In this document: positions 488 to 11,535 of the stretch, in pieces
How positions within the stretch are numbered: position 1 is the stretch's first letter
Layout of the letters: each line of letters opens with the position of its first letter
NCBI GenBank assembly: GCA_025456345.1
Contig: JALOKU010000007.1
Coordinates: 1-64,000 of the forward strand
DNA length: 64,000 nucleotides
Source of the DNA: Vicinamibacterales bacterium
GTDB taxonomy: Bacteria > Acidobacteriota > Vicinamibacteria > Vicinamibacterales > JAKQTR01
Reading direction: 5' to 3'
Notes under the pieces: generated by a model
Told to the model about the DNA's origin: nothing
Databases searched by the model: none
The model's input: the letters and a program-made list of their open reading frames with translations, nothing else
Program-made: the position numbers and the translations under genes

Positions 488-1270
488 CTAGCCGTACCGC
501 CCTTCGATGTACTCCGCCGTCCGGCGGTCCTGCGGGACCAGGAACAGCTCCGCGGTGCGGCGGTGCTCGACCAACTCGCCGAGCAGCATGAAGATGCACT
601 CGTCGCTCACGCGCCTGGCCTGGGCCATGCTGTGCGTCACGATGACGATCGTGTAGCGCCCCCGCAGCTCGGCCATCAGGTCCTCAATGGCGCGGGTCCC
701 TTCCACGTCCAGGGCGGAGCACGGCTCGTCCATCAGGATGACGTCCGGACGCAGGGGCAGCAGCCGCGCGATGCACAGCTTCTGCTGCTGCTCGAGCTGC
801 AGATCGGTGGCCCTGGTCCGGAGCCGGTCCTTCAGGTCCTTCCAGAGCCCGGTTTCGGTCAAGGCGCGCTCCACAGCCTCGTCCAGCGTCGGCCGCGTCA
901 ACTGCCTGCCCGGGGTGTGCAGCCGCAGCGCGAAAACGACGTTCTCGTAGACGGTCAGCGGCAGGGGGTTCGGCCGCTGGAACACCATGCCGACCGACCG
1001 GCGCAGTTCGATCAGGGAAACGTCAGCCGCGTAGATGTTCCGCCCGAGCACCTCGATGTCGCCCGTCGTCCTGACCTCCCCGTAGCGTTCGTTCACCCGG
1101 TTGAAGCAGCGCAGCAGCGTCGTCTTGCCGCAGCCGCTCGGCCCGATGAGCGAGGTGATCTGGCCGTGGCGGATGCCGACCGTCACACCCTTGAGGGCCT
1201 GGAACGACCCGTACCAGAGGTTCAGCGCCCTGGTCTCGATGGCGAACGGGGACGCGGCCGGTGCGCTCAT
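488..1270 (-). CDS. pstB: Phosphate ABC transporter ATPase PstB, copy 1 (signature motif degenerate)
   Basis: This 260-residue protein is a cytoplasmic nucleotide-binding subunit of the high-affinity phosphate importer. Walker A (GPSGCGKTT), Q-loop (VFQRPNP), Walker B (VILMDEPCSALD) and H-loop (VTHSM) are intact and of PstB type. The ABC signature, normally LSGGQQQR, reads LQLEQQQK in the same frame, so the Ser and both Gly that contact ATP across the dimer are lost. The ATG (1270-1268) overlaps the TGA of the preceding pstB copy as ATGA, so translation is probably coupled. It is the last gene of the operon. The partner encoded just upstream has an intact signature but lost its Q- and H-loops, which suggests that the two proteins work as a heterodimer. 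Confidence 0.9.
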   Translation of the reverse strand: MSAPAASPFAIETRALNLWYGSFQALKGVTVGIRHGQITSLIGPSGCGKTTLLRCFNRVNERYGEVRTTGDIEVLGRNIYAADVSLIELRRSVGMVFQRPNPLPLTVYENVVFALRLHTPGRQLTRPTLDEAVERALTETGLWKDLKDRLRTRATDLQLEQQQKLCIARLLPLRPDVILMDEPCSALDVEGTRAIEDLMAELRGRYTIVIVTHSMAQARRVSDECIFMLLGELVEHRRTAELFLVPQDRRTAEYIEGRYG

Positions 1271-2046
1271 CCGAACAGCCCGCTGATGTACTCGTACGTC
1301 TTCCGCTGGGCCGGCGCGTCGGAGAAGACGACGGCGTTCGGCCCGATTTCCACCAACTCGCCCGCCATCAGGAACATGGTCCGGTCGGCCAGGCGCCGTG
1401 CCTGCTGCGTCAGGTTGGTGACGAGGATGATCGTCACCTCGCGCTTCAGCTCCCTGAGCACGTCTTCGATCCGCATCGTCGTGACCGGATCGATGGCGAT
1501 CGAGAACTCGTCGAGGCAGAGGATCTCCGGCTCGTGCGAGAGCGCCCTCGCGATCGTGAGGCGCTGCTGCTGGCCGCCCGACAGCTTGGTGCCGAGCGAG
1601 CCGAGACGGTCCTTGACCTCGTCCCAGAGCGCCGCCTGCCGCAGGCAGCGCTCGACGCGCCCGTCCAGTTCGCCCCTGGAGGTGATGCCGGCGCAACGGG
1701 GCGCGAAGGCGACGTTGTCGTAGATGCTCATCGGCAGCCCGACCGGCAGCGGCGCGACCATGCCGATGCGCCGCCGCAGGTCGAACACGTCCCGCACCCG
1801 TCGGACGTCCTCGCCGTCCACCCGGATCGTGCCGGTCACGTGGGCGCCGGCGACGAAGTCGATGGTGCGGTTCAGGCAGCGCAGGAGGGACGTCTTGCCG
1901 GACTGGGCCGGGCCGATGATCCCCAGGATCTCGTTCGCCTGCACGTCGAAGGAGACGCCCCGGATCGCCTCGCGATGCCCGTACGCGAGGCGGAGGCCCT
2001 CGACCTCGATCTTCGCGCGGGGATCGATCGCCACCTCCGGCCTCAC
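1267..2046 (-). CDS. pstB: Phosphate ABC transporter ATPase PstB, copy 2 (Q- and H-loops degenerate)
   Basis: This 259-residue ABC ATPase of the PstB family starts at GTG (2046-2044), overlapping the pstA stop as GTGA. Walker A (GPAQSGKTS), signature (LSGGQQQR) and the Walker B acidic pair (CLDE) are present. The Q-loop, normally VFQKPNPFPM, reads VAPLPVGLPM, so the Gln is lost. The D-loop reads IAID instead of SALD. The H-loop reads VTNLTQQA, so the switch His is Asn. On its own this subunit should hydrolyse ATP poorly. Paired with the adjacent PstB it would donate the intact signature to the one competent site. The alternative is that either protein is a silent paralogue, but the overlapping gene arrangement argues for joint function. 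Confidence 0.9.
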   Translation of the reverse strand: MRPEVAIDPRAKIEVEGLRLAYGHREAIRGVSFDVQANEILGIIGPAQSGKTSLLRCLNRTIDFVAGAHVTGTIRVDGEDVRRVRDVFDLRRRIGMVAPLPVGLPMSIYDNVAFAPRCAGITSRGELDGRVERCLRQAALWDEVKDRLGSLGTKLSGGQQQRLTIARALSHEPEILCLDEFSIAIDPVTTMRIEDVLRELKREVTIILVTNLTQQARRLADRTMFLMAGELVEIGPNAVVFSDAPAQRKTYEYISGLFG

Positions 2047-2978
2047 CAGCGCTTCCGGTTCCGCAGCCAGACGCGCAGGCCGATCGCGGCGGCGTTGACG
2101 AGCAGTACGGACCCGAGCAGCACCACCGCCGTGGCGTAGGGGATCGCGTGCGCCACGTTCGGCACCTGGGTGGTGAGCACGTAGAGGTGCATGGACAGCG
2201 CCATGCACTGGTCGTCGAGGTAGTACGGGAAGAGCGAGCCGCGCTCCACCGCCTTGTACAGCACGGCGCCGGTGAACATCACCGGCGCGGTCTCGCCCGC
2301 CGCGCGGCTGACTTGCAGGATGATCCCGGTCAGGATGCCGCTGATCGAGTTCGGCAGCACGACGCCCCGGATCGTCTGCCAGCGGGACGCCCCGACGTTC
2401 CAGCAGGCCTCGCGGAACGCCGTCGGCACGGCCGCCAGCGCCTCGCGCGTGCTGGCGATGATGACCGGCAGGGTCATGATGGCCAGCGTCAGCGAGGCCG
2501 CCATCACCGAGAAGCCGAACCTGGCGGCGTACACGAACGCGCCGAGGCCGAACAGCGCGTGGACGATGCTCGGCACGCCGGCCAGGTTGATGACCGCGAG
2601 GTTGATGATCCGGTTGAACCAGGTGTCCTTGGCGTACTCGTTGAGGTACACCGCCGCGAGGACGCCGATGGGCGCGGCGACCGCCAGCGAGATGGCCACC
2701 AGGTAGATCGTGCCGACGAGCGCCGACCAGATGCCCCCCTCCGTCATGCGGTTCCTCGGCACGTCGAGCAGGAACTCGAGGCTGAGCGCCGGCCACGCCT
2801 CGACGACCAGGTGCGCGACAATCGCCACCAGCGGCGCCACCATCAGGAGCGTCATCGCCAGGAACACGGCCCGCGCAGCCGATTCCTGCCTGAGCTTGCG
2901 CCGCCCGTACGCCGTCTCGGCAAACGGCGGGCGGCCGTCCGGTCCGGCCGCGACGCGGGGCTGGGCATCGGTGCGCAT
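2043..2978 (-). CDS. pstA: Phosphate ABC transporter permease PstA
   Basis: The 311-residue inner-membrane permease forms the phosphate channel with PstC. The first hydrophobic helix is near residues 37-58 after a basic cytoplasmic N-terminus. Several more follow, and the EAA-type coupling loop (EACWNVGASRWQTIRGVVLP) lies around residues 185-205, where the ATPases dock. The following SRAAGETAPVMF stretch is characteristic of PstA. The ATG at 2978 follows the pstC stop by six bases, and the stop overlaps the next gene as GTGA. The length is normal for the family and no defect is visible. Confidence 0.93.
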   Translation of the reverse strand: MRTDAQPRVAAGPDGRPPFAETAYGRRKLRQESAARAVFLAMTLLMVAPLVAIVAHLVVEAWPALSLEFLLDVPRNRMTEGGIWSALVGTIYLVAISLAVAAPIGVLAAVYLNEYAKDTWFNRIINLAVINLAGVPSIVHALFGLGAFVYAARFGFSVMAASLTLAIMTLPVIIASTREALAAVPTAFREACWNVGASRWQTIRGVVLPNSISGILTGIILQVSRAAGETAPVMFTGAVLYKAVERGSLFPYYLDDQCMALSMHLYVLTTQVPNVAHAIPYATAVVLLGSVLLVNAAAIGLRVWLRNRKRW

Positions 2979-2984
2979 CGCGGC

Positions 2985-3920
2985 CTACCTCCTGCGCGTG
3001 CCGCGGACCACGAGATCCGCCGCCAGGTTCACGGCGAAGGTGATGGCGAACAACTGGATGCCCGTCAGGAACAGGATGCGGTAGTGTTCCGACCCGGCCG
3101 GGGCCTCGCCCAGTTCCGCGGCGATGTTGGCGGTCAGCGTCCGGACCGAGTCGAGGATCCCGTGCGGGACGTGGACCGCGTGGCCGGTGGCCATCAGCAC
3201 GGCCATCGTCTCGCCCACCGCCCGGCCCACGCCCAGCAGGACGGCGGCGAGCAGGCCGTGGCGCGCGGCCGGCAGCAGGACGCGGAACACCAGCTGCCAC
3301 CGCGTCGCGCCCATGGCGACGGCCGCCTCGCGGTACGAGTCCGGGACGGCCCTGAGGGCGTCCTCGCCGATCGACACGATGATGGGCACGCTCATGAGCG
3401 CGAGGATGATGCCGCCGTTCAGCATGTTCACGCCGACGGGCGCCGAGGTGTATTCCACCATGAGGCGGCTGAGCACCGTCAGCGCGACGAATCCCCAGAC
3501 CACGCTCGGGATCGCCGCAAGCAGTTCGATGACCACCTTCAGCGTTTCCTTGACCCTGGGGCCGCAGAACTCCGAGACGAAGATGGCCGCGCCCAGGCCG
3601 AACGGGACGGCCAGCGCCATGGCCAGCAGCGTCACGCCCGCCGTGCCGGCCGTCAGGGCCAGCGTTCCGTAGCGGACGTCGACCGCGGAGGTCGGATACC
3701 ACTGCACACTGAACAGAAATTCGATCGGATCGAACTGCTCCGAGAAGAGCACGGGCGCGGCCTCCCGGAAGATGAAGAAGAAGATCGCCAGCACGAACAC
3801 GATGGCGCTGATCCCGCTCAGCCGGATCGCGGCCTCCACCGCCTGCTCGCCGAGAAGCGACCAGAAGGAGCGCCGGTGACGCCGGCCTGGCCCGGGCGCT
3901 GTGATCGGCTCCCTGATCAC
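2985..3920 (-). CDS. pstC: Phosphate ABC transporter permease PstC
   Basis: This is the second membrane subunit of the phosphate importer (311 aa). I chose the GTG at 3920-3918 as start because it overlaps the pstS TGA as GTGA and has a GGGAGG-like ribosome site in the end of pstS. An upstream in-frame ATG at 4007 would overlap pstS by 90 bases and add an untypical arginine-rich leader. Features include a first helix around residues 33-55 (SGISAIVFVLAIFFFIF), the coupling loop (EAAVAMGATRWQLVFRVLLP) and the VGRAVGETMAVLMATG segment conserved in PstC. It should pair with PstA and the two unequal PstB subunits. Confidence 0.93.
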   Translation of the reverse strand: MIREPITAPGPGRRHRRSFWSLLGEQAVEAAIRLSGISAIVFVLAIFFFIFREAAPVLFSEQFDPIEFLFSVQWYPTSAVDVRYGTLALTAGTAGVTLLAMALAVPFGLGAAIFVSEFCGPRVKETLKVVIELLAAIPSVVWGFVALTVLSRLMVEYTSAPVGVNMLNGGIILALMSVPIIVSIGEDALRAVPDSYREAAVAMGATRWQLVFRVLLPAARHGLLAAVLLGVGRAVGETMAVLMATGHAVHVPHGILDSVRTLTANIAAELGEAPAGSEHYRILFLTGIQLFAITFAVNLAADLVVRGTRRR

Positions 3921-4834
3921 CTCGCCTCCCGCACGCCGCCCTTTGGCGACACCGGAACGTATCCGCTCTGTTCGAGGATGCGCTGGCCGTCGGCCGAGAG
4001 GATCCACGCGAGGTAGGCCTTGACCGGGCCCGCGGGCGCCCCCAGCGTGTACATGTGCAGCGACCGGGCGATCGGGTAGCTCTGGTTCCAGGTGGACTCG
4101 ACGGTGGGCGGGTAGGCGGTCGCGCCGGCCTGACGCGCGACCTTCAGGATCTTGACCCGCGGCGTCGCGTACCCCATCCCGCTGTAGCCGATGGCGCAGG
4201 GCGTGGTCGACACCAGTTCCACGACCTCCTTCGAGCCGTTGAGATCGCGGGACCCGAGTTTGAAGTCCCGATTCGAGAGGACGCGCTCGCGGAAGAACTC
4301 GTAAGTACCCGAACTGGACTGGCGGCTCACCCGGACGATCTCGTCGCTCTTGCAGCCCGGGACGGCGGCGCCGAGATGGCTCCAGCTCACCAGCGCGCCG
4401 TCCTCGCGGTAGATGCCGGCCAGCTGGTCGAACGTGATCGCGTCGAGCGGGTTGGCCGGGTGAACGTAGATGGCCAGCGCGTCGTAGCCCACCTTGAAGT
4501 CGACCGGGTCCAGGCCCGTGTTGCGGCGGACCTGCTCCGCCTCCTCCGCCTTGACGTCGCGGCTGGCGTTGGCGATGTGGACGGTGCCCTTGATCAGCGC
4601 CGCGATGCCCGTGCCCGACCCGCCGCCCGACACCTCCACGTTCACACCGGGCGCGACCGTCTGATAGGTCTCGGCCCAGGCCTGCGCGACGTTCACCATC
4701 GTGTCGGAGCCCTTGTTCTGAATCGCCACGTCTCCCGAGCGCGGGCGGCAGCCCGCCGGCACGAGGGCCGCAGCCGCCAGGACCGCCGCCAGGCCGCGCC
4801 TTACCGCGGCAGGGCGCCGCAGACCGGGTGTCAT
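3917..4834 (-). CDS. pstS: Periplasmic phosphate-binding protein PstS
   Basis: This 305-residue PBP-like protein binds phosphate outside the membrane and delivers it to PstC/PstA. The N-terminus is basic, followed by a hydrophobic signal segment ending in VPAGC, a tolerable lipobox, so the mature protein may be lipid-anchored. Phosphate-binding motifs of the family are visible: NKGSDTMVN near the mature N-terminus, SGGGSGTGIAAL, SRDVKAEE, and SRQSSSGTYEFF. The ATG (4834-4832) overlaps the stop of the PhoU-fusion gene as ATGA, so the regulator is translated just ahead of the transporter. The C-terminus (SGYVPVSP) is typical. Confidence 0.92.
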   Translation of the reverse strand: MTPGLRRPAAVRRGLAAVLAAAALVPAGCRPRSGDVAIQNKGSDTMVNVAQAWAETYQTVAPGVNVEVSGGGSGTGIAALIKGTVHIANASRDVKAEEAEQVRRNTGLDPVDFKVGYDALAIYVHPANPLDAITFDQLAGIYREDGALVSWSHLGAAVPGCKSDEIVRVSRQSSSGTYEFFRERVLSNRDFKLGSRDLNGSKEVVELVSTTPCAIGYSGMGYATPRVKILKVARQAGATAYPPTVESTWNQSYPIARSLHMYTLGAPAGPVKAYLAWILSADGQRILEQSGYVPVSPKGGVREAR

Positions 4835-5967
4835 GGCGCCGCCGTCTGCCGCGCGTCCCCGTCGAGCATCCCGAGCAGGTCGATCACGTCGGCCTCGAGA
4901 CTCCGGTACGCGTCGTCGTGGGCGGCCGCGACCTCCTCCGGCGACCCTGCGCCGGAGGCGGCGGGCGACGAGTGCCGCCATTCCAGCCACACCCGGCCCC
5001 GCGCGTCGCGCGGAAACGCCTTCTTCACGCCCTCCCCCACTGCCACCACCACCTGGTACTGATCCAGCCCAGGCACGTCGTAGATGGCGCGCGCGGGCGA
5101 CCGGGACAGATCCACACCCTTGCCCCGCATGAACTCGATGGTGGCCGCGTCGAGGCGCTGCGGCTTCACGCCCGCGCTGCTGAACACCACGCCGGGCCCG
5201 CCGAGCCGCTCGCCGATGGCCTGGGCCATCTGGCTCAGGCTTCCGTGGGTCTCGTCGACGAACAGGACGCGCATCGTGGCGTCGCCCTGATGCCGCGTGG
5301 TCTGCCCCGTGCACATGTAGATCACTTCGTGGCAGATGTTCCGCGCCTGGTCCGACGCCCGCTCCAGGCGCCGGCTCGCCTGCATCCACGGGTTGAGCGC
5401 CTCGAAGCTCCAGTCCCTCTCCCGGGACCGCGAGATCAGGTCCCTGGCCAGCGAGGCCTTCAGGTGGTCGACGGCGTCCTCGGTGCCGATGGTCCGGTTC
5501 GCCAGCTCGGCGTCCTCCGTGACGAACGCCCTGACGGCGTCGCGCAGCATGCCGATCGTGAGGTCCGCCATTTCCTCGTAGCGTTCACGGGGGGCGTCGA
5601 TGCCCGCGTCGCTCGCGCGCAGCGCCTGGCGCGCGATGCTCTCGGCGTAGTCGCCCATCCGCTCGAGTTCGAGGCTGATGCGGATTGCCGCGTACGCCAT
5701 CCTCAACTGGCTGGCGACGGGCTGCTGGCGGACCAGGAACTCGAGGCACAGCCGGTCGAGCTCCTGCTCCCTGCCGTCGACGAGGCGGTCCCTCAGGATC
5801 ACCGACAGCGCCAGCCGGCGGTCACCGCTGAGCAGGGCCTGCACCGCGTCGCGGAGGGCCCGTTCCACGAGGGCCGACATGTCGCTGGCGGCCGCCTTGA
5901 TCTCGTCAACGTCGTGCTGCATAGATTCTGCGAACCGCTGGGGGCGTGGCGCGCCTGATTCGGTCAT
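4831..5967 (-). CDS. PhoU domain fused to a catalytically dead LMW-phosphatase/ArsC-like domain
   Basis: This 378-residue protein leads the pst operon. Residues about 10-225 form a PhoU repeat pair with the acidic metal-binding helices LELERMGDYAESIA and [16 protein letters not shown], typical of regulators that couple Pst to phosphate signalling. Residues about 232-378 resemble the low-molecular-weight tyrosine phosphatase/arsenate reductase fold (MRVLFVDETHGSLSQMAQAI). The usual CTHNSARSQMA-type P-loop reads DETHGSLSQMA, so both the nucleophilic Cys and the anion-binding Arg are gone. The fusion is continuous in frame. An internal ATG at 5274 could give a separate C-terminal product but is not needed. 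The second domain may sense an anion or phosphoprotein without catalysis; this is inference. A GAGAG ribosome site precedes the ATG. I found no clear Pho box upstream. Confidence 0.85.
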   Translation of the reverse strand: MTESGAPRPQRFAESMQHDVDEIKAAASDMSALVERALRDAVQALLSGDRRLALSVILRDRLVDGREQELDRLCLEFLVRQQPVASQLRMAYAAIRISLELERMGDYAESIARQALRASDAGIDAPRERYEEMADLTIGMLRDAVRAFVTEDAELANRTIGTEDAVDHLKASLARDLISRSRERDWSFEALNPWMQASRRLERASDQARNICHEVIYMCTGQTTRHQGDATMRVLFVDETHGSLSQMAQAIGERLGGPGVVFSSAGVKPQRLDAATIEFMRGKGVDLSRSPARAIYDVPGLDQYQVVVAVGEGVKKAFPRDARGRVWLEWRHSSPAASGAGSPEEVAAAHDDAYRSLEADVIDLLGMLDGDARQTAAP

Positions 5968-6170: not shown

Positions 6171-6581
6171 CTACTGCACGTGGAGGGGAGAGTCCATCAG
6201 GAGCGGCGCCCCCGGGCCCACGGGGATGCCCAGCAGGGCCCACGTGACCAGGAACGCCGTCCAGGAGAGGAAGAAGGCGACCGAGTAGGGCAGCATGAGG
6301 GCCACTACCGTGCCCACGCCCGCTTTCGGATCGTACTTCTGGACAAACGCGATGATGAGCGCGAAGTAGGACATCATCGGCGAGATGATGTTCGTCACGC
6401 TGTCGCCCACCCGGTAGGCCGCCTGGGTGAACTCCGGGGTGTACCCGAGCAGCATGAACATCGGCACGAACACCGGCGCCAGGATGGCCCATTTCGCCGA
6501 CGCGCTGCCCATCGCGAGGTTGACGGCGGCCGCCAGCGCCACGAAGGCGACGGTGAGCGGGACCGTGCCGAAGCCGAGGAC
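6171..6581 (-). pseudogene. Truncated AbgT-family transporter, C-terminal third only
   Basis: About 136 codons encode the C-terminal membrane helices of an AbgT (aminobenzoyl-glutamate) family transporter: [36 protein letters not shown], then two further hydrophobic segments and a normal stop at 6171. The N-terminal roughly 350 residues found in the family are missing. Upstream of 6581 the frame turns into low-complexity sequence made by a tandem 12-base repeat (6609-6632), and no start typical of the family exists. An intact member of the same family lies at 45064-46629. This copy is best read as a deletion remnant. Confidence 0.8.
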
Positions 6582-10095: not shown

Positions 10096-10191
10096 GAGCA
10101 GTCGCAGCGCTTCACCGACCCCTACACGTTCTCCCACACGATCCACGGGATGCTGTTCTACGCGATCCTGTGGCTCGTCGCGCGCCGGGCA
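10096..10191 (+). pseudogene. DUF2585 (UPF0314) gene fragment
   Basis: Thirty-two codons read SQRFTDPYTFSHTIHG, MLFYAILWLVARR and neighbours, which match the conserved SQH-DPY-SH-HG-LFY segment in the middle of DUF2585 proteins. A possible original ATG at 10019 is in another frame, and the cysteine-rich part expected before this segment is absent. The downstream two thirds are also missing. The fragment runs antisense into the 3' end of the TerB-like gene, whose last residues are encoded by the opposite strand of this remnant. The C-terminal end of a DUF2585 gene is found at 3-134. Confidence 0.6.
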
Positions 10192-10721
10192 GCCGATTCC
10201 GCAGGCGCGGGCTCAGTCCGCCGCGGGTCCCGGCGCGCAAGCCTCGCGCGCACCACGTCCGCGTGCTCGATCCGCAGTTCGAGCGCCACGCGGGCGATCT
10301 CCTGGTCCTCGGCCAGCGAGATCGTGTCGTCGGTGGCCGAGACGATGAAGAGGCATTCGAGCAGCGCGAGTTTCTGATCGTAGCTGGCCATCCTGGCGAA
10401 CTCGCGCGCGACCAGGAAGTCCTCGGTGCCGCCGAACAGCGTGTTCTGGCTCTTGGCCATCTGCACCACCATGACGGCCTGGGCCTCCGGCAGCGCACCG
10501 CGCTCCGCGACGATGCGCTCCATGGCCAGCGTTTCGGCGGCGCTAATCTCCCGATCGGCAATCGCGACGCGGCCGAGGATGTACGCGAACGCCGCGACAT
10601 AACGCGCGCGGTCCGGGTCGAGGCGGTCCAGCTCAGCCGCGATCCTGTGCACCGTGTCAGTGTCGCCCTGGCCGGAGGTCGCGGGGGCCCCGCCGAGCCC
10701 CAGGAATTTCAGAATGGACAT
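10158..10721 (-). CDS. TerB-like (tellurite-resistance TerB fold) protein
   Basis: This 187-residue protein starts at ATG 10721 with MSILKFLGLGG. The all-helical TerB-like domain covers about 25-160: YVAAFAYILGRVAIADREIS, MERIVAERGALPEAQAV, FLVAREFARMASYDQKLALL and LEDQEIARVALELR-like motifs, with the acidic pairs DREIS and DDTIS placed as in metal-binding TerB/TerB-like proteins. The tail after residue about 165 (TEPAPAESAARRATSHRIA) is encoded over the antisense strand of a DUF2585 fragment and looks acquired. A diverged partial copy of the C-terminal half lies at 205-446. The exact role is unknown; TerB-like domains occur in stress and membrane-associated complexes. Confidence 0.75.
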   Translation of the reverse strand: MSILKFLGLGGAPATSGQGDTDTVHRIAAELDRLDPDRARYVAAFAYILGRVAIADREISAAETLAMERIVAERGALPEAQAVMVVQMAKSQNTLFGGTEDFLVAREFARMASYDQKLALLECLFIVSATDDTISLAEDQEIARVALELRIEHADVVRARLARRDPRRTEPAPAESAARRATSHRIA

Positions 10722-10797
10722 GCCGTATCGTCCCACACGCGGGCGTCTTGATCCATGCGCCGCCGCGCCTGCCGGGATCAGGTAGGATCGGGGAACC

Positions 10798-11535
10798 GTG
10801 ACGTCCCCCATACCGCTCATCGCCGACGAGGCTGGCCTGGTCGCCGTGGACAAGCCCTGGGGACTGCCCGTCGTCGCTGGAGGCGGGGAACAGCCTGGCG
10901 ACTGCGTGCGGGCCGTGCTGGAACGCCAGCTGGGTGCCGCGGTGTGGGTCGTGCACCGCCTCGATCGCGACACGTCAGGCGTGCTGCTCTTCGCCCGCAC
11001 GCCCCAGCTGCACCGCGAGCTGTGCCTGGCTTTCGAGCAACGCCGCGTCCGCAAGACCTACGTGGCGTTCACCCTCGGCGTGCCAGCGCGGCGCGAGGGG
11101 CGCATCCAGACGCCCCTCCACCCTGCGCGGCGAGGCAAGGTCCGCCCCGCCCGGCCGGGCGAGGACGGGGCCTGGGACGCTGCCACGCGCTACATCGTGC
11201 GCAAACGCTGGGAACGCGACGGCGCGGCCGTCGCCATGGTCGAAACGCACCCGGAAACGGGGCGCCACCACCAGATCCGCGCTCATCTGCGGTCGATAGG
11301 CGCACCGATTCTCTTCGACCGCGCGTACGGCCCGGCATCCGGCGCCGTGCAACTGGCCGGATCGCCCGCGCAGCGGCTCGCGCTGCACGCGTCGCGGCTG
11401 ACCGTGCCGGTTGCCGGCGAGGCAGAGATCCTGCACACGTTTGACGCGCCGCTCCCGGCAGACCTTGCGGCGCTGCTCCACTGGCTCGACGCGGAATGGA
11501 CGGTGGTGGCGGCCGCTACTTCTTCGCCTGGTTGA
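10798..11535 (+). CDS. RluA-family pseudouridine synthase
   Basis: This 245-residue protein starts at GTG 10798. The catalytic motif HRLDRDTSGVLLFA (about residues 53-66) contains the Asp required for uridine-to-pseudouridine isomerisation. Later family motifs are KTYVAF and ETGRHHQIRAHL. There is no N-terminal S4 domain, so it belongs with the short RluA/TruC/YjbO-type enzymes acting on rRNA or tRNA; the target base cannot be told from sequence. The 3' end overlaps the convergent hypothetical gene by 20 bases. Confidence 0.85.
   Translation: MTSPIPLIADEAGLVAVDKPWGLPVVAGGGEQPGDCVRAVLERQLGAAVWVVHRLDRDTSGVLLFARTPQLHRELCLAFEQRRVRKTYVAFTLGVPARREGRIQTPLHPARRGKVRPARPGEDGAWDAATRYIVRKRWERDGAAVAMVETHPETGRHHQIRAHLRSIGAPILFDRAYGPASGAVQLAGSPAQRLALHASRLTVPVAGEAEILHTFDAPLPADLAALLHWLDAEWTVVAAATSSPG

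Follow-up and report, generated by a model that had tools for sequence, protein, structure and literature searches.

A PhoU protein carrying an arsenate-reductase-like domain

The window analysed here is a stretch of 64,000 nucleotides from a Vicinamibacterales bacterium (contig JALOKU010000007.1), and it carries an operon for the phosphate transporter Pst headed by a gene that we call phoU*. Its product is a PhoU protein joined in frame to a C-terminal domain of the fold of arsenate reductase (ArsC) and low-molecular-weight phosphatases (LMWP). The first-pass annotation of this DNA had read 4831-5967 as PhoU followed by a phosphatase-like domain deprived of its catalytic Cys and Arg, and this was confirmed by the reading frame, PF01895 and TIGR02135, profile comparison, AlphaFold and Foldseek, and the P-loop itself. 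The gene is composed of the following parts.

4831..5967, minus strand: phoU*, in-frame fusion of PhoU and an inactive ArsC/LMWP-fold domain, 378 amino acids in a single frame
5290..5967, minus strand: PhoU domain with two PF01895 repeats (residues about 1-226)
4852..5274, minus strand: C-terminal domain of ArsC fold, inactive and free of cysteine (residues about 232-372)
5236..5256, minus strand: degenerate P-loop D238-E-T-H-G-S-L244, replacing CX5R

The PhoU part is complete: it scored above the curated cut-offs of both PF01895 (E-value 2.6e-34; 117.9 bits against 23.5) and TIGR02135 (156.9 bits against 130.25), has the PhoU fold, and is encoded with a Pst transporter, pstS, pstC, pstA, pstB1 and pstB2 lying directly downstream. 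No stop codon separates the PhoU and ArsC-like parts, and all relatives found likewise have the fusion as a single open frame. The N-terminal 226 residues thus resemble known PhoU proteins (TIGR02135; 4q25, 1t72) in their full fold, two repeats and Pst operon setting, whereas the about 150 extra residues with the ArsC fold, and the branching of fused PhoUs apart from stand-alone ones, set phoU* apart.

Fold of the C-terminal domain

A Pfam scan of the window protein by itself missed the C-terminal domain, and the ~145-150 residues after PhoU gave weak single-sequence matches to arsenate-reductase models (TIGR02689, E-value 1.7e-6, residues 233-315). Pfam LMWPc (PF01451) matched 31 of 35 fused members, the window protein not being among them, and a profile of the C-terminal domain matched SynArsC (E-value 1.3e-21) with the catalytic Cys of ArsC aligned to Asp and 'NSCRSQMAE' in common. 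The AlphaFold model of phoU*, built with the 35-sequence family alignment, had a mean predicted local distance difference test (pLDDT) score of 90.8 and a predicted template modelling (pTM) score of 0.66, so that the domains are well modelled individually but their mutual arrangement is uncertain. When this model was compared with the PDB by Foldseek, PhoU structures came first (template modelling score by target 0.87-0.95), ArsC structures second (mostly 0.75-0.86) and low-molecular-weight protein tyrosine phosphatases (LMW-PTPs) below them; the second lineage gave the same outcome. By model and profile, the C-terminal domain has the fold of an arsenate reductase and is ArsC-like rather than LMW-PTP-like. 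The LMW-phosphatase/arsenate-reductase fold proposed initially is corrected in this respect.

Loss of the catalytic residues

The P-loop of the window protein reads D238-E-T-H-G-S-L244-S, in which Asp occupies the place of the catalytic Cys and Leu that of the Arg. The general-acid 'DP' has also been lost (SSP instead), the resolving cysteine pair is absent, and there is no Cys anywhere in the domain; the paralogue in the same genome likewise has Leu and lacks DP. A functional arsenate reductase is ruled out for the window protein, since Cys, Arg and resolving Cys are all missing, and an LMW-PTP, characterized by CX5R and the general-acid Asp of the DP loop, finds neither here (D...L, SSP). 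Judged from these residues, the domain is incapable of thiol chemistry. It is similar in fold and overall profile to ArsC of the thioredoxin/glutaredoxin type (SynArsC, 2l17; pI258 ArsC, 1ljl; Bacillus subtilis ArsC, 1jl3), but differs from them in the Cys-to-Asp replacement, in the missing resolving pair, in the loss of Arg and general acid in the window protein, and in being fused to PhoU. The likeness to LMW-PTPs (PF01451) lies in the LMWPc matches of the fused members, while the window protein has no CX5R and ArsC structures outscore LMW-PTPs.

A survey of PhoU fusions, which the first-pass annotation had proposed as a check, yielded 53 distinct fused domains from at least three phyla; the homology surveys reported here are samples. 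The nucleophile position was occupied by Asp in 45 of the 53, and by Cys (3), Ser (2), Gly (2) or Glu (1) in the others. Both Cys and Arg were present in 90/90 unfused relatives, which were gathered largely by a pattern fixing part of the loop while leaving the Cys position free. The resolving-cysteine pair was found in none of the 53 fused domains versus 88/90 unfused ones, and the resolving segment had no Cys at all in 49/53. Of the 45 Asp forms, 18 still have the Arg and 27, the window protein among them, have lost it. In the alignment, the SAG motif is nearly invariant, and many P-loop positions vary. Cys-to-Asp is a family-wide state and is not peculiar to the window genome, and the family clearly exemplifies a bacterial pseudophosphatase in which one nucleophile replacement recurs.

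Distribution, selection and origin of the fusion

The window genome contains two copies of the fusion. Besides the window locus, a second operon start (phoU*, pstS, pstC and a partial pstA) was found on contig C3 (locus L017, 1-3405), where it ends at the contig edge, and the two PhoU* proteins are 65% identical. The fusion was found in 7 genomes of the order, in 15/193 of the class and in 20/396 sampled from the phylum. It was also found in 14/331 genomes from the phylum of a Myxococcales metagenome-assembled genome (MAG), one of the 14 being a separate, independent fusion, and in 5/338 from the phylum of a Verrucomicrobiales MAG, one of the five being a broken locus. No PhoU match was obtained in G001 and G002, two genomes of the window's genus that are 96-97% complete. 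In genome G928 (locus L281, 6356-7210, minus strand), a single frame comprises PhoU, a PstA-like piece and a PstB2 piece, reflecting either an internal operon deletion or a misassembly.

In close pairs, the ratio of nonsynonymous to synonymous substitution rates (dN/dS) for the C-terminal domain was 0.10-0.33, near that of the PhoU part, and the domain is under purifying selection comparable to that on PhoU. Nevertheless, the residues for thiol chemistry are gone; the domain has been maintained without them. Simple decay is ruled out by purifying selection and by the Asp common to 45/53, and the domain is a real module.

In PhoU trees, the main fused family was separated from stand-alone PhoUs (99 by the Shimodaira-Hasegawa-like approximate likelihood ratio test, SH-aLRT). 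It comprises lineage A, in which phoU* is first in the operon, lineage B, in which pstS is usually first, and a small lineage C; the deep branching among the three is weak, with long branches meeting. CX5R is kept in two members of lineage C, L256 (VCDKNDCRS) and L257 (LCENNACRS), and a third, L255, has Gly. The intact loops suggest the starting point; the three members are compatible with an enzyme-first history but do not establish its direction. The second, independent PhoU-ArsC fusion lies among ordinary PhoUs (L276, 1987-3933, minus strand; L274, 14763-15890, minus strand). L276 has an intact CX5R Cys and a canonical PstB, and L274 has Cys-to-Ser. That the fold was joined to PhoU twice, separately, may point to a functional reason for its being there.

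An uneven PstB pair in the same operon

The remainder of the operon is arranged as follows.

3917..4834, minus strand: pstS, its ATG overlapping the phoU* stop (ATGA)
2985..4007, minus strand: pstC, TIGR02138 above cut-off, exact start not fixed
2043..2978, minus strand: pstA, TIGR00974 above cut-off
1267..2046, minus strand: pstB1, GTG start, LSGGQ kept, Q-loop Gln replaced by Pro and H-loop His by Asn
488..1270, minus strand: pstB2, ATG overlapping the pstB1 stop, LQLEQ instead of LSGGQ, but intact Walker A/B, Q-loop and H-loop

In the main fusion family, each locus lying wholly within its contig has phoU*, pstS, pstC, pstA, pstB1 and pstB2, in the order phoU*-pstS-C-A-B1-B2 or pstS-phoU*-C-A-B1-B2. 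Across the family, PstB1 keeps Walker A/B and LSGGQQQR (LSGGQ in 44/44), and has Asn at the H-loop (VTN, 44/44) and Pro for Gln at the Q-loop. PstB2 keeps Walker A/B, the Q-loop and the H-loop His (VTH, 40/41), and reads L(Q/S)LE(Q/E)QQK instead of LSGGQ, which was absent from all the PstB2 proteins read. The canonical PstBs of this data set have retained these motifs wherever they were readable. PstB1 and PstB2 form two clades apart from canonical PstB, and both fell below the PstB cut-off of NCBIfam TIGR00972. The two paralogues thus show the complementary motif losses of an asymmetric ATP-binding cassette (ABC) pair, and the unequal PstB pair that had been noted in this Pst system is real. 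Because of these complementary losses, a standard head-to-tail dimer of PstB1 and PstB2 is predicted to form one consensus ATP site, from the PstB2 Walker motifs and the PstB1 LSGGQ, and one degenerate site, from the PstB1 Walker motifs and the PstB2 LxLE.

Two adjacent pstB genes also occur in the pst-phoU locus of Enterococcus faecalis (PMC12096839), but motifs are intact in both proteins there, in contrast to the complementary losses of the window-type pair. The motifs predict a combination that heterodimeric ABC exporters also have (BmrCD, PMC4046567; PatAB, PMC9541285), a consensus ATP site beside a degenerate one, whereas the window system is a binding-protein-dependent phosphate importer and not an exporter. 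PhoB/PhoR-type genes adjoin several fused loci. PhoR-like kinases are present in the window genome, none of them reaching the cut-off.

Possible function of the fused domain

The way in which PhoU links the Pst transporter to PhoR in phosphate signalling has long been an open problem. In Escherichia coli, the Pho signal is set by the conformation of PstB, since mutants that lock this protein in one conformation or in its opposite report opposite phosphate states; interactions among PstB, PhoU and PhoR are known there as well (PMC5775613). For the window system, the explanation that we favour, though only tentatively, is that a non-catalytic docking or reporter domain lets PhoU* read an asymmetric Pst ATPase. 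PhoU* may be regarded as a PhoU for phosphate signalling to which a pseudo-enzyme domain, derived from the ArsC/LMW-phosphatase fold, has been joined permanently, and this pseudo-ArsC domain would most likely act as a binding module. PhoU* would dock on the cytoplasmic ATPase pair PstB1/PstB2, where the altered P-loop face would give it a single orientation towards the uneven dimer (or towards PhoR), and would then report or limit the ATP-driven state of the transporter. We infer here that PstB1 and PstB2 form a heterodimer, that the domain contacts PstB or PhoR, and that the phosphate signal passes via that contact. That a pseudophosphatase can act on a transporter has a precedent in PRL and the CNNM magnesium transport proteins (PMC5427921), where, as proposed for phoU*, a phosphatase-fold domain binds a transporter; PRL, however, belongs to an unrelated, eukaryotic PTP family and retains its Cys.

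Several observations weigh against this explanation. Replacement of the PRL3 nucleophile Cys by Glu blocked partner binding (PMC5427921), so that an acidic P-loop would need another binding mode. The interdomain arrangement in the AlphaFold model is uncertain (pTM 0.66). The Arg kept in 18/45 Asp forms leaves room for a ligand. Finally, the PstB1/PstB2 pair also occurs with an ordinary PhoU or with none nearby (L231-L237); the fusion and the pair are therefore not inseparable, and the ArsC-like domain is dispensable for the pair to work.

Alternatively, the domain might be a ligand sensor, in which binding of a metal, a nucleotide, phosphate or arsenate in the old anion pocket alters PhoU. The ArsC fold, the Arg kept in a minority of Asp forms, the nearly invariant SAG motif and the phosphate-uptake context agree with such a role, and ars and pst genes are reported to be often paired in arsenic islands (PMC3834237). 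We nevertheless consider a ligand sensor unlikely: a carboxylate in place of the thiolate at the pocket base (45/53) disfavours oxyanions, Arg is gone in more than half of the Asp forms, the window protein included, and the latter has also lost the DP loop. The anion-binding domain put forward at first has accordingly become less likely. It is harder still to believe that the domain serves folding only, as a structural spacer or stabiliser that has no partner. Catalysis has been lost and the P-loop is variable at many positions, as a spacer would allow, but one specific substitution has been kept across three phyla and two deep lineages, under purifying selection equal to that on PhoU. Very improbable is a receiver-like role in which the conserved Asp would accept phosphate from PhoR, say, or from a small phosphodonor. 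In 45/53 domains this Asp ends the first strand of a Rossmann-like fold, and histidine kinases are encoded near several loci, but the alignment shows no evident receiver or HAD partner motifs, and the phospho-acceptor domain suggested earlier is not supported as stated. A separate gene or frame artefact, for which an ATG at 5274 might speak, can be dismissed, because this Met is unconserved (the paralogue has Ile, and other sequences have Phe, Tyr and further residues) and the single-frame fusion recurs in at least three phyla.

Returning to the docking or reporter domain, the first-pass idea of a new sensory module holds as regards a conserved module, with the sensory or reporter role being our reading of it. 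Taken together, the system suggests a distinct, apparently undescribed kind of phosphate uptake control. It is attractive, if rather speculative, to see in it phosphate importers that form a branch of their own, spread over at least three phyla, and whose asymmetric PstB1/PstB2 would be read by a PhoU with an ArsC-like domain turned from enzyme into sensor by one Cys-to-Asp change, the surviving Cys forms representing the earlier state. In the open-access literature we found no description of a PhoU-LMWP/ArsC fusion, a Cys-to-Asp pseudophosphatase or a degenerate ABC importer matching this system; as the literature covered was open access only, this absence is not proof of novelty. A natural PhoU with a built-in extra domain, together with an unequal ATPase pair, makes the transporter's two faces distinguishable and the system amenable to testing.

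Surroundings of the operon

A C-terminal fragment of an AbgT-family transporter lies at 6171-6575 on the minus strand (PF03806 positions 376-500/502), upstream of the pst operon. The scanned frame lacks the N-terminal part, and the fragment is probably what is left of a gene. The operon is flanked on both sides by a direct repeat (202-478 and 10228-10503; 86% identical over 279 bases), which belongs to a TerB-family gene (PF05099 at 10158-10800).
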